From the NCBI GenBank assembly GCA_025464995.1, contig JAODMO010000021.1, positions 1 to 64,000 of the forward strand: DNA of 64,000 nt, in the 5' to 3' direction. Positions 40,532 to 46,194 of this stretch are shown here, in pieces. Position 1 is the first letter of the stretch; each line of letters begins with the position of its first letter. Origin of the DNA: Microbacteriaceae bacterium. Its GTDB lineage: Bacteria > Actinomycetota > Actinomycetes > Actinomycetales > Microbacteriaceae. The position numbers and the translations under genes are program-made. Under the pieces are notes generated by a model. That model was not told where the DNA came from. It was given only the letters and a program-made list of their open reading frames with translations, and did not search any database.

Positions 40532-40954
40532 TCAGGCGGGCGGCCACACCCCGATGATGATCGCCATGATGACGATCGTCACGAACTCATGCGCGATGTT
40601 GAGCACCGTCAGTCCCGACGGGCGGCCGTCGAAGGCGTCGTGGGTGATGAACCGTGCGGCCGTGAACCCGGCCCACAGGATGATGGCCGTGACGAGCGCG
40701 TTGAGGAAGAAGCTGCCGCCGTAGAAGTCGAGCGAGATGAAGGCGGCTCCGGCCAGCACCCACGCGGTGATGAAGCTCACGATGACCGTGACGGCGATCG
40801 GCCACGTGGCGTCTTTCGCGTTGCCCGACGGCGTGATGTTGGCCTGCTTCATCCAGTAGTTGCCGAAGACGCGCGGGGTGTACCAGATCGAGCCGACCAC
40901 CATGCTCGAGAGCGTCGCGAGAAACACGGCCCAGTAGTTGATGTCGGGAACCAT
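40532..40954 (-). CDS. DUF1761-family membrane protein
   Basis: 140 aa with four helices (YWAVFLATLSSMVVGSIWYT; PIAVTVIVSFITAWVLAGAAF; FFLNALVTAIILWAGFTAARFI; EFVTIVIMAIIIGVW). The N-terminal SSMVVGSIWYTPRVFGNYWMKQANI is the DUF1761 signature. GAAGGAGGGGG precedes the ATG. Function unknown. Its upstream region carries two CTATAAGCC copies resembling the operator region of the satD-like gene nearby. Confidence 0.88.
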   Translation of the reverse strand: MVPDINYWAVFLATLSSMVVGSIWYTPRVFGNYWMKQANITPSGNAKDATWPIAVTVIVSFITAWVLAGAAFISLDFYGGSFFLNALVTAIILWAGFTAARFITHDAFDGRPSGLTVLNIAHEFVTIVIMAIIIGVWPPA

Positions 40955-41002
40955 GGTCCCCCTCCTTCGCTTCGTTGACCACAGTGTAGGACTTCCGTGC
41001 GC

Positions 41003-41039
41003 CTATAAGCCTATGGCTGATATCACGCAGCTATAAGCC
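41003..41039. promoter_or_regulatory. Paired CTATAAGCC repeats upstream of the DUF1761 gene
   Basis: CTATAAGCC occurs at 41003-41011 and 41031-41039, 28 bases apart, in the short gap between two minus-strand genes. On the minus strand a TACACT -10-like box lies about 14-20 bases downstream of the first copy, so the nearer copy overlaps the -35 region of the DUF1761 promoter. The TATAAGC core also appears next to the satD-like start. Confidence 0.45.
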
Positions 41040-41041
41040 AT

Positions 41042-41881
41042 TCAGTTAAGGGCGGTGAAGCGGAGGACTATGGCGACGACGAGCACGAGCCCCCAGCTCG
41101 CGAAGCTGCCCACGAGGAAATACTCGGCCTTCGACCCCGCGGCGTCGTCTTTCGAGATCTCCGGGAAACGGATGATGCCCTTGGCCGCCACGACGGCGGC
41201 GATGGCGGTGAACTCGCCCGAGAGCGCAAGGGTCAGCAGGAAGATGCGTTCGAGCGGCCCGATGAAGCGTCCGCCTTTCAATGGCGCGAACGGCTCTGCG
41301 GCCGCCGCGACGGCGGGCCCCGCCGCCCGGCGCGACCACCGGCGCGAGCGCGGTGCCTCGACCTCCGTCGGCACGGGTGCCGAATCGGCCTGTTGCGCTT
41401 CCGACCCTGTGCCGCGCAGCGCCGCTCGCACGATCACGTTGGCGGTCTCGAACAGGAAGAGCACGCCGCCCACGGCGAGGGCGAAGGTGCTGAACGACAC
41501 CTCGTCGAGGGCGGTGTACGGCAACCGGGCGTACCAGCGGGTGAGCCATCCGGCCGGCGGGGCGACCGCGGGGCCCGCGACGAAGACGACGACGACCGCG
41601 AGTGCCAGCCCGCGGACGGCCCAATAGGCGGGGCGGTCGGAAGTCGCGCCCGTGCGCCGGGCATCGGGCGCGGCCGACGCGAACGGCGCAGTGGCCACGA
41701 TCCAGGAGACGAGGGCCGCGACCCCGACCGCGTTCCACCACCAGTCGAGACCGGTGCCCATAGCGCCGACTACGAAGACGGCCGCACCGGCGAGCGCGGC
41801 AGGCCAGAGCCCACCCGGCGCACGCGACCGCATCAGGTCGGAGACGCCGAGCGCGGCGAGGAGGAGGGCGAGGAGGATCAC
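41042..41881 (-). CDS. Membrane protein coupled to the SatD-family gene
   Basis: 279 aa from a GTG that overlaps the upstream gene's stop (GTGA). It has about seven hydrophobic segments: VILLALLLAALGV, LWPAALAGAAVFVVGAMGTG, WWNAVGVAALVSWIVATAPF, ALAVVVVFVAGPAV, FSTFALAVGGVLFLFETANVIV, RIFLLTLALSGEFTAIAAVVAAKGIIRF, YFLVGSFASWGLVLVVAIVLRF. The loop between helices 5 and 6 is cytoplasmic and basic. The C-terminal phrase AAKGIIRFPEISKDDAAGSKAEYFLVGSFASW looks conserved in proteins linked to SatD-like genes. Role unknown; the coupling argues that it works with, or is controlled by, the SatD protein. Confidence 0.75.
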   Translation of the reverse strand: MILLALLLAALGVSDLMRSRAPGGLWPAALAGAAVFVVGAMGTGLDWWWNAVGVAALVSWIVATAPFASAAPDARRTGATSDRPAYWAVRGLALAVVVVFVAGPAVAPPAGWLTRWYARLPYTALDEVSFSTFALAVGGVLFLFETANVIVRAALRGTGSEAQQADSAPVPTEVEAPRSRRWSRRAAGPAVAAAAEPFAPLKGGRFIGPLERIFLLTLALSGEFTAIAAVVAAKGIIRFPEISKDDAAGSKAEYFLVGSFASWGLVLVVAIVLRFTALN

Positions 41882-42576
41882 GCGGCACCCCCGAGGATGA
41901 GGGTCTCGCTCGCGAGCAGGGCGGTCGCGCCGCTGCGTGAGAGACTCTGCGAGACCGCAGACTGGGAGATGCCCTCCTCGCGGGCGAGCTGCGCCTGGGT
42001 GCGCTCGAGCAGCTGTCCGAGCAGCAGCCTCCGGGCACGCGGCTGCATGGCGCCGACCATCTGGTCGCGGCAGAGGAGGTACGCGTTGACGAGGTGCTCG
42101 GCCGGGACGCCCGCCGGGGGCGCGTCCGCCGACGGTTCCGGGTCGGCGGAGTCGCCGGTAGCGAACCACGTGCGCACGAAGCCGAGCCGGGAGTACTCGT
42201 GCTCCCGTGCGGTGCCGATCGCCCTCCGCGCCGACCACCAGGCCGAACCATCCTGAATCGACCCCACCGCACCGGTGCCGACCGTGCGCAGCTCGCCGAG
42301 CCCGATGCCGAAGCGGCACTCCGCGCCGTCGGGGAGGCGCAGGCGCACGAGGAGTGTCGCACGCAGCGCCGCCGACAGGCCGGTGTACGCGCCCTGGAAC
42401 TCGTCGCCGACGGTGGGTTCGAGCGGCTGCAGCGCGGGCACGAGTCCATTGACGTCGCGGAGCACGTCGACGACCTCTGCCTGCAGCGCCCGGCGATCGG
42501 GATGCGTGCGTGACCGCGAGATGTCGACGATGACGGCGACGGCGTATCGCGATTCGTCGAGCTGCGAGCGACCCAT
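41878..42576 (-). CDS. SatD-family protein with C-terminal HTH
   Basis: 232 aa. The N-terminal part fits SatD-family proteins: YAVAVIVDISRSRTHPDRRALQAEVVDVLRDVN, LEPTVGDEFQGAYTGLSAALRATLLVRLRLPDGAECRFGIGLGEL (a nucleotide-cyclase-like beta/alpha fold with GDEFQ). The C-terminal part has a sigma-70 region-4-like HTH: LLLGQLLERTQAQLAREEGISQSAVSQSLSRSGATALL. SatD is named from the Streptococcus secretion/acid-tolerance locus, but its biochemistry is unknown. Start ATG is leaderless: TAAGCT lies 6 bases upstream. Coupled to the following membrane gene by a 4-base overlap. I infer a regulator that may bind the nearby TAAGC palindromes. Confidence 0.8.
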   Translation of the reverse strand: MGRSQLDESRYAVAVIVDISRSRTHPDRRALQAEVVDVLRDVNGLVPALQPLEPTVGDEFQGAYTGLSAALRATLLVRLRLPDGAECRFGIGLGELRTVGTGAVGSIQDGSAWWSARRAIGTAREHEYSRLGFVRTWFATGDSADPEPSADAPPAGVPAEHLVNAYLLCRDQMVGAMQPRARRLLLGQLLERTQAQLAREEGISQSAVSQSLSRSGATALLASETLILGGAA

Positions 42577-42624
42577 ATCGTAAGCTTAGCGCTTATACCG
42601 GGCCGATATAAGGCCCAAGCTTAT
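42577..42624 (-). promoter_or_regulatory. Promoter and two TAAGC inverted repeats before the SatD-family gene
   Basis: IR1 at 42581-42595 is TAAGC-N5-GCTTA; IR2 at 42608-42624 is ATAAG-N7-CTTAT. On the minus strand the -10 box TAAGCT (42583-42588) sits 6 bases before the ATG and inside IR1, so a protein bound to IR1 would block RNA polymerase. This is an autoregulation layout. The motif core TATAAGC is shared with the gap before the DUF1761 gene. Confidence 0.55.
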
Positions 42625-43882: not shown

Positions 43883-44287
43883 ATGACGACGTCACGCTCC
43901 GACACCTTGCGTTTTCCGCCCTTCTGGGCTGCGGCGATCGACGGCGCCGTCGTGCTGCTCTTCGTGCTCATCGGCCGGGCGTCGCACGACGAAGATCCGG
44001 TGATCGGGGCGCTCACCACCTACTGGCCCTTTCTTGTCGGGCTGCTGCTCGGTTGGCTGATCGCCCGCGGATGGCGCGCGCCGCTCTCGCTCGTGCGCAC
44101 GGCGCTCCCCGTCTGGGCCGTCACGGTCGTGGTCGGGCTGCTGCTGCGCGCGGTGACGGGCCAGGGGGTTCAGCCGAGCTTCGTGATCGTCACGAGCGTC
44201 GTCCTCGCCGTCTTCCTTCTCGGCTGGCGCGCGGTCGTGGGCTTCGTCGTACGTCGTCAGTCGCGCAAGGCGCTCACCCGCACGTAG
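43883..44287 (+). CDS. DUF3054-family membrane protein
   Basis: 134 aa. Four helices: FWAAAIDGAVVLLFVLIGRASH, YWPFLVGLLLGWLIARGW, LPVWAVTVVVGLLLRAV, PSFVIVTSVVLAVFLLGWRAVVGFV. The pattern D(G)AVVLLFVLIGRASHDE...G...T.WPFL.G...GW is the DUF3054 signature, a small actinobacterial membrane family without known function. Start is the leaderless ATG. The 3' end overlaps the convergent GH43 gene by 31 bases. Confidence 0.85.
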   Translation: MTTSRSDTLRFPPFWAAAIDGAVVLLFVLIGRASHDEDPVIGALTTYWPFLVGLLLGWLIARGWRAPLSLVRTALPVWAVTVVVGLLLRAVTGQGVQPSFVIVTSVVLAVFLLGWRAVVGFVVRRQSRKALTRT

Positions 44288-46194
44288 TCGAAGCGGCTCT
44301 CGAAGCCCGCGCCACCCATCGACACGAGGCCGATGCGCGGTGAGGCGAGGTCGTGGCTCCACGTGCCGCCGCGCACCCAGTTGCGCCCGTTGATGCTCGT
44401 GTACGCGGTGTACAGCCCGTCGTGGTGCACGATGCGCAGGTATGTCGACTCTCCGACCGGCCCGACGACGGTGTTGCCGTAGTTGGGGTAGCCCGTGGGC
44501 ACCGGCGACTCCTGCTTCATGAACTCGGTCTGCCTCGTCTCCCAGATGGAGCTCGAGGCGAGCTTGACGTAGTTGCCGTCGTCGCCGTAGATCAAGAGTC
44601 CGCCCTGCACGTAGTTGTAGCAGCATCCCTCGGCGGGAACCGTGACGGTGACCTTCGTCTCGACGACGTAGTCGCCCTCGGGGGCAGGCTCGGTGAGCAC
44701 CGAAGCGAGCGGCTCTGCCGGCGGGTGTAGGTCGGCTGCCTGCGTCTGCCAGCGCAACTGGCCGTTGCGCAGCTGGAAGGATGCCGATTCGGGCCGGATC
44801 CAAGTCCAGCCGGTCAGTATCGAGTCGTTGAAGCTGTCGCTGAGGCGCGCGTAGGTCTTGCCGACCCGCACGTCGCGCACGAATCGCGGACGGTAGGCCG
44901 TCGTGTCGCCGGGTTGCGCCGCGGGGGCGGGCATCGTCTCGTCGGAGGGACCAGCGCCCCCGCGCACGACCGGCCAACCCTGGCGCCAGTCGAGCGGGTC
45001 GAGGAGCGCGGGCCGCTTCGTGTAGCCGACATCGTTCACGTAGTACGGGTCGCCCTGGTCGACGGCGTGGTAGATCGTCCAGTCCTGGCCGGCGAAGTCG
45101 GTGAAGACGGTGTTGTGGCCCGCGCCGATCCACCGGTTTCCGTTCTGGGTGAGCACGGGGGTGCCTCCGACGCGTCCGGCGAGCACGGAGACACCGTCAC
45201 GGTCGACGAACGGCCCCAGCGGGCTCTTCGAGCGGGCGGCGAAGACGGAGTACCCCGTGAGCGGACCGCGGCAGCAGTCCGTGGCCGACGCGAGCAGGTA
45301 GTACCACCCGCCATGGCGCAGCACGACCGCTCCCTCGTAGCGGTTGGCGATGGTGATGCGGGTCTCGGATGCCGCGATGGACGTGAGCCCGTCGGAGGCG
45401 AGCTCGCGCACGAAGATGCCGCCGAAGTAGCTGCCGAAGTACAGGTAGGTCGCGCTCCCGGTCGTCAGCACCTCGGGGTCGAACTGCCAACGACCACCGG
45501 CGTCGGGGGTCACGACCGGCACGCCCGTGTCGGTCCACGGGCCTGTGGGGCTGTCGCTCGTCGCGACGCCGATGGCGGACGGCCCTGGCTCGCTGGATCC
45601 GGCGGGCGGTGTCGTCTGGGAGGCGCCGAAGTAGAGGAGGTAGCGGCCGTCGCGGTAGGCGATCTCGGGCGCCCAGATGCCTCCGGTCGCTGCCACCCAC
45701 GACGGCTTGGTCGGGAAGGCGTCGCCGACGTAGGTCCAGGTCACGAGGTCGGTCGAGCGGAACATCGGCATGTTGTGGATGACGAGGCCGCCGGCGGCGT
45801 CGCGCTCGTCTTCGTACAGCGCGTCGGAGGTGCAGTAGAGATACCAGTTGGTGTCGCCGGCCTGCTGGCCGCGGATGATGTCGGGGTCGGCGCAACTCTC
45901 GGCCTCACCGCCGGGGATCGAGAGGTGGAGCGGGTTGCTGTACTCCGTCGCGGGCTCGCCGGGAGGTGTGGGCGTCGGGGTCGGTGTGGCCGTCGGGGTC
46001 GGTGAGGCGGTGGGCGTGGGCGTGGGCGTCGGCGTCGGCGTCGGCGTGGCCGTCGCTGTCGGCGTGGGGCTCGGCGACGCGGTCGCACTCGGAGTCGGGG
46101 TCGGCCCTGGGGTCGGATCCGCGGTGGCCGCGGCCACCGGGGCGGAGAGCAGGGCGGCCATCACAAGGGCGATGCCGGCACGTCGAAACACCAT
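44257..46194 (-). CDS. Secreted GH43 arabinan endo-hydrolase/arabinofuranosidase-like enzyme
   Basis: 645 aa. Signal peptide MVFRRAGIALVMAALLSAPVAAATA, a roughly 50-residue Pro-Thr(-Ala/Ser) linker, then a five-bladed GH43 domain: ESCADPDIIRGQQAGDTNWYLYCTSD (base Asp), MFRSTDLVTWTYVGDAF, GGIWAPEIAYRDGRYLLYFGAS, GRWQFDPEVLTTGSATYLYFGS (acid Glu), RYEGAVVLRHGGWYYLLASATDCCRG, GAGHNTVFTDFAGQDWTIYHAVD. A C-terminal concanavalin-like domain (FNDSILTGWTWIRPESASFQLRNGQLRWQ... YVRVSALRD) resembles modules of plant-polysaccharide enzymes. Extracellular release of arabino-oligosaccharides is the likely job; the exact linkage is not certain. Confidence 0.88.
   Translation of the reverse strand: MVFRRAGIALVMAALLSAPVAAATADPTPGPTPTPSATASPSPTPTATATPTPTPTPTPTPTASPTPTATPTPTPTPPGEPATEYSNPLHLSIPGGEAESCADPDIIRGQQAGDTNWYLYCTSDALYEDERDAAGGLVIHNMPMFRSTDLVTWTYVGDAFPTKPSWVAATGGIWAPEIAYRDGRYLLYFGASQTTPPAGSSEPGPSAIGVATSDSPTGPWTDTGVPVVTPDAGGRWQFDPEVLTTGSATYLYFGSYFGGIFVRELASDGLTSIAASETRITIANRYEGAVVLRHGGWYYLLASATDCCRGPLTGYSVFAARSKSPLGPFVDRDGVSVLAGRVGGTPVLTQNGNRWIGAGHNTVFTDFAGQDWTIYHAVDQGDPYYVNDVGYTKRPALLDPLDWRQGWPVVRGGAGPSDETMPAPAAQPGDTTAYRPRFVRDVRVGKTYARLSDSFNDSILTGWTWIRPESASFQLRNGQLRWQTQAADLHPPAEPLASVLTEPAPEGDYVVETKVTVTVPAEGCCYNYVQGGLLIYGDDGNYVKLASSSIWETRQTEFMKQESPVPTGYPNYGNTVVGPVGESTYLRIVHHDGLYTAYTSINGRNWVRGGTWSHDLASPRIGLVSMGGAGFESRFDYVRVSALRD
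45962..46114 (-). repeat. Low-complexity Pro-Thr linker DNA repeat in the GH43 gene
   Basis: About 150 bases of imperfect 6-base repeats (ACGCCG/ACACCG-type, encoding Pro-Thr and Ala-Thr) within the coding sequence. It forms a flexible and probably O-glycosylated linker between signal peptide and catalytic domain. Copy-number changes here would keep the reading frame when in whole hexamers. Confidence 0.7.

Follow-up and report, generated by a model that had tools for sequence, protein, structure and literature searches.

The satD-family gene in the analysed window (the whole stretch of 64,000 nucleotides) raises the question of which protein reads the inverted repeats overlapping its promoter, and which neighboring genes these repeats control. 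The first-pass annotation had proposed that SatD reads them through a C-terminal helix-turn-helix (HTH), and that a TATAAGC motif shared with the next gene joins SatD, a coupled membrane protein, and a DUF1761 protein in one small envelope-sensing regulon. Our comparison of sequences favors a narrower reading, which we consider likely: a two-gene autoregulated satD-membrane module, in which SatD would act on tandem repeats.

Paired operators in the window

TATAAGC occurred three times in the 64 kb, against an expectation of 0.26, and a count of three was reached in none of 100 shuffles. The sequence confirmed the two inverted repeats noted earlier at the satD promoter as well as the two TATAAGC copies close to the DUF1761 gene, and the pattern is far above chance. 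The motif was also better ordered than first noted. On the gene strand, both places carried tandem inverted repeats of the form ATAAG-N7-CTTAT-N11-ATAAG-N7-CTTAT, and the period between the paired 17-bp inverted repeats (ATAAG-N7-CTTAT) was exactly 28 bp in both. The first place, operator O1 (42580–42624, minus strand), spans the satD promoter with inverted repeats at 42608–42624 and 42580–42596 and is kept in orthologues; in the gene direction (42624–42580) it reads ATAAG-N7-CTTAT-N11-ATAAG-N7-CTTAC, with half-site matches at 19 of 20 positions. The second, operator O2 (41005–41049, minus strand), overlaps the membrane gene at its stop codon and is degenerate, reading TTAAC-N7-CTTAT-N11-ATCAG-N7-CTTAT from 41049 to 41005 (17 of 20). 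O2 also carries TAGGCT (41008–41013) in the same register as the −10 hexamer of O1. The position weight matrix (PWM) scores were 52.4 for O1 and 38.5 for O2, and the best other place within a 12-kb stretch scored −18.

Exact matches to ATAAGC-N22-ATAAGC in the 2.87-Mb genome (2,871,031 bp) were limited to two, at 41005–41038 on the plus strand and 42591–42624 on the minus strand, and allowing one mismatch added nothing to these two window sites. The sole further match in this genome, on contig C59, had two mismatches and was background-level by PWM. These results indicate that, in this genome, the sites are confined to the two places in the window.

Conservation of the satD promoter

We compared the upstream regions of 80 satD loci from named genomes and 29 from Microbacteriaceae. 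Tandem inverted repeats stood directly before the start codon in most of them, so that the palindromes, which had first been noticed in a single genome, proved to be kept with fixed spacing across Actinobacteria. The repeated word was ATAAG, ATCAG, or ATTAG in Microbacteriaceae, with spacers of 7 and 11 (28-bp period), and TGAAG with the same spacers in mycobacteria, Phycicoccus, and propionibacteria; Actinomyces used CTTGT-N12-ACAAG. Additional repeats extended beyond the start codon in mycobacteria and Phycicoccus. Within the approximately 10 kb scanned per locus, exact repeats of the clade words were almost confined to the satD promoter.

The −10 hexamer TAAGCT (42583–42588, minus strand) lies inside the proximal repeat of O1, 6 nt before the satD ATG. 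In 93 of 103 loci, a TANNNT hexamer preceded an in-frame start by 5–8 nt, the distance being exactly 6 nt in 79 cases, compared with 0 of 613 control windows. Given this geometry, satD looks leaderless in these 93 loci, with the −10 embedded in the operator, and the leaderless promoter suggested for the window gene agrees with most of its orthologues.

The genome scans gave two additional real-looking sites, one in G037 and one in contig C19 of G090, and a wider SatD regulon was rejected. The G037 site (L149, 8131–8175) is a strong SatD-type operator (PWM 42.9) approximately 50 nt upstream of a convergent α/β-hydrolase gene, with the satD operon of a congener alongside. The G090 site (L176, 5362–5406; PWM 38.0) is operator-like, lies far from satD and just upstream of a 199-aa ORF, and its surroundings look like a mobile-element region.

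SatD family and cyclase fold

The satD gene (41878–42576, minus strand) encodes a protein with an N-terminal domain of predicted class III cyclase fold and a C-terminal HTH whose recognition helix is ISQSAVSQSLSRSG. SatD matched Pfam PF16264 with 37.3 bits (cut-off, 29) over profile positions 2–114 of 211, and all 59 aligned SatD members matched this profile. The predicted model had a pLDDT of 91.9, and Foldseek placed its N-terminal domain among class III cyclases, with the cyclase domain of Rv1900c first (E 5.4e-6) and the cUMP synthase 7r65 among the matches. Both the family and the cyclase fold given in the first-pass annotation were confirmed by these matches. The TVGDE segment of SatD aligned with the metal-binding TVGD of cyclases, with D58 opposite the cyclase GD, and D18, D58, and E59 were invariant in the 59 sequences. 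The two metal-binding Asp residues of class III cyclases would correspond to D18 and D58, of which D18 was assigned by strand position only. In a motif comparison, as distinct from a superposition, the position of the base-specifying Lys was variable and that of the cyclase Asn was Trp in the SatD consensus. These models indicate that the N-terminal domain has a class III cyclase fold. Cyclase activity is at most a possibility, as catalytic positions other than D18, D58, and E59 are not typical, and control by a nucleotide is a guess, because SatD shows no clear counterpart of the usual base-binding Lys or transition-state Asn.

The SatD family is named after the sat (secretion and acid tolerance) genes of Streptococcus mutans. 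A literature search, to which subscription journals were mostly external, found no description of a SatD regulator, regulatory role, or operator, in line with the earlier impression that the system is undescribed.

SatD as the probable reader of the sites

The C-terminal HTH of SatD gave a weak Pfam match below the cut-off. The operator word varies by clade (ATNAG, ACAAG, TGAAG, or TTAAG), and we compared it with the recognition helix of the SatD encoded at the same locus. The helix contained (S/T)QSAVSQ at ATNAG loci, SQQAVS(E/D) at most ACAAG loci, and (S/T)(A/P/D/E)SA(V/N)SQ at TGAAG loci. The residue following the helix Ser/Thr was Gln in 48 of 48 loci whose word begins with A and was not Gln in 34 of 34 loci whose word begins with T; helix residue and word agreed in 82 of 82 loci, a count that leaves out approximately 20 loci with no clear word. 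This agreement is confounded by descent. On the best tree of the N-terminal domain, helix residue and word each changed four times and the independent pairs agreed in four of four cases. Two independent changes lay on well-supported branches, and the sign test was not significant, 0.05 being unreachable with so few pairs. The most telling cases for the link are the single-lineage switches within Microbacteriaceae, namely L154 (Asp with TGAAG) and L170 (Pro with TTAAG), of which L154 may reflect acquisition of the locus and not a change within the lineage, because the tree places it with other genera. The conserved operators and the helix-operator match together make SatD very probably the reader of the palindromes, as the first-pass annotation had supposed, and very probably the regulator of the operon that its gene forms with that of the membrane partner.

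Membrane partner

The membrane partner gene (41042–41881, minus strand) begins within satD, with a 4-nt overlap between its start and the satD stop. Its product has approximately 7–8 predicted helices (model pLDDT 87.2). The gene adjoined satD in nearly all loci, with the 4-nt overlap in most, and in loci of the SANSQ type it was divergent from satD, with an operator region common to both. By gene order it is a conserved partner of satD, which bears out the coupled membrane protein proposed earlier. The invariant residues of the partner were G203, G204, G208, E211, R212, K234, R238, E241, E253, G258, and S262. The partner matched no Pfam family above the cut-off and no fold in the PDB, and the PF11750 profile had no match among 51 partner members. 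Its C-terminus may at most resemble DUF3307 proteins.

The operon end and the DUF1761 gene

We searched for O2 in other loci using a weight matrix built from 18 promoter sites. In many loci it placed a second site where the membrane gene ends, frequently beginning exactly 15 nt short of the stop codon's last base. When the spacer was allowed to vary by one base, the sites in 16 of 42 loci outscored every one of 3,793 background windows except one, and this exception was the real-looking α/β-hydrolase promoter site in G037. L170 added one locus to give approximately 17 in all, and a recognisable O2 was absent from more than half of the loci. The genes after O2 were either unrelated (DUF1761, EamA-type permease, VOC, NIF3, and NYN) or convergent (leuA-like, HxlR-like, and ligase-like), where all names other than DUF1761 were assigned by eye from the sequences. 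Since the next gene is unrelated or convergent, O2 appears to belong to the satD-membrane operon, and its position marks the 3′ end of this operon, whatever gene follows. Four genomes had a NYN-domain-like gene (MxxPTEGRVAVYIDFDN...) adjoining the satD operon or close to it, upstream in L151 and L153 and downstream in L155 and L008.

The DUF1761 gene of the window (40532–40954, minus strand; Pfam DUF1761, 82.8 bits) has O2 50 nt 5′ of it. We found no operator at any of 14 DUF1761 genes of relatives, where the best PWM scores were −7.9 or lower, and the flanking sequence available for the other loci placed DUF1761 next to satD in almost none of them. The proposal that DUF1761 is a regulon member was thus not upheld, and DUF1761 was rejected as a conserved partner; it is probably only a local neighbor. 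The TAGGCT in the O1 −10 register was absent from other O2 sites, and since the window O2 carries it, O2 may affect DUF1761 in this genome only. Farther along the window, 44257–46194 (minus strand) encodes a secreted protein of 645 aa that resembles glycosidases and has a long linker of Pro-Thr repeats behind its signal peptide.

Proposed mechanism and alternatives

In the mechanism that we favor, the C-terminal HTH of SatD would bind the tandem 17-bp inverted repeats. Because the −10 of the leaderless promoter lies within the proximal repeat, bound SatD would most likely block RNA polymerase, and this geometry suggests that satD would be repressed together with the membrane gene, its translationally coupled partner, most likely making SatD an autorepressor. 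O2, approximately 1.5 kb away, would probably serve as an auxiliary site through looping or as a transcription roadblock. The cyclase-fold domain would probably bind, and possibly convert, a nucleotide that tunes SatD binding, and the membrane protein could be a sensor or an effector.

It is conceivable, if unlikely, that SatD activates its own operon or does either depending on a ligand. The window promoter has no good visible −35, and the distal repeat is situated about where an activator could touch the polymerase, whereas the coverage of the −10 by the proximal repeat and the repeats that continue past the start codon in mycobacteria and Phycicoccus suit blocking. That all three genes form an envelope-sensing regulon, with SatD in control of its own gene and of those for the membrane protein and DUF1761, is a less probable reading. 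It would account for the TAGGCT hexamer peculiar to the window O2 and for the 50-nt distance to DUF1761, which is also a small membrane-type protein, but the operator-free DUF1761 genes of the relatives, the different neighbors elsewhere, and the presence of O2 before unrelated or convergent genes argue against it.

Two further readings are very improbable. Another regulator could read the repeats, SatD being merely one of its targets, as the binding by SatD is a prediction and its HTH scores below the Pfam cut-off; however, the sites are confined to satD operons, and from clade to clade they change together with the recognition helix of SatD. Alternatively, the operon-end repeats could be an RNA feature, such as a weak terminator or processing hairpins, a reading to which we give slightly less credence still. 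Some O2 repeats form perfect 6-bp stems (for example, ATCAGC-N5-GCTGAT in L157), but the stems are short and A+T-rich, with no evident U run, and O2 shares its 45-bp layout with O1, which, being upstream of a leaderless start, would lie outside the transcript.

Relation to known systems

The proposed SatD module resembles several known systems in part. The mycobacterial cyclase-HTH fusion proteins, e.g., Rv0386, likewise join a cyclase-type domain to an HTH, and SatD shares with class III adenylyl/guanylyl cyclases the fold and the TVGDE/TVGD alignment; it differs from all of these in being small, with a single short HTH, its own operator, and apparently atypical Lys and Asn positions. Pycsar, which combines a uridylate cyclase with a membrane effector, also pairs a gene for a cyclase-fold protein with an adjacent gene for a membrane protein, and its likeness to SatD extends to the 7r65 fold match, whereas the SatD pair has an HTH and self-operators and lacks a PADLOC match. 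Autorepressors of the lac and gal type use auxiliary distant operators, and the likeness lies in an operator over the promoter with a distant second one; SatD differs in its protein family and in the location of O2 at the 3′ end of the operon. For the family PF16264 itself, the present work adds a putative regulatory role and an operator, neither of which we found described.

These findings offer a testable role for a family of unknown function whose members extend from Microbacteriaceae as far as mycobacteria and Actinomyces. In this role, SatD would read a defined, evolving operator and govern a conserved membrane protein that matches no PDB fold, and the Gln-to-adenine code predicts a binding word for each SatD. 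We regard as tentative, and rather doubtful, the broader view that SatD-membrane pairs are widespread nucleotide-gated self-repressing modules, with a cyclase-fold domain that would produce or detect a nucleotide, an HTH that would repress the operon via clade-specific tandem operators, and a harmful membrane effector that SatD would hold in check in a Pycsar-like or toxin-antitoxin-like manner. The satD gene of S. pyogenes, known here from its published description alone, is reported to be accessory yet essential where present (PMC11323703). By analogy, and taking that gene by its description, this would fit a protein restraining a harmful partner, and such a role may help explain why satD is essential where present though many strains lack it.

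Distribution and second family

A sequence search with SatD gave a match in 34 of 200 Microbacteriaceae genomes. Searches of phages and IMG/VR found no relatives, and the PADLOC profiles had no match for SatD, its partner, or DUF1761. One conjugative Arthrobacter plasmid bears a satD operon with O1-like and O2-like sites. With this single plasmid copy and the absence of phage, IMG/VR, and PADLOC matches, a link to phages or defence was rejected.

Profile searches revealed a distant second SatD-membrane family, each profile of which matched 120 of the 200 Microbacteriaceae genomes; the SatD and membrane matches were mostly side by side, as read by eye. The genome of the window (G000) itself carries such a pair at 1597–2163 and 2244–2762 of contig C55 (L240), and a third match to the membrane partner was found at the edge of contig C47 (264–833). 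Inverted repeats averaged 2.35 per 150 nt upstream of 40 second-family loci, compared with 0.088 in the background, and were often of the form ATCAAG/CTTGAT.
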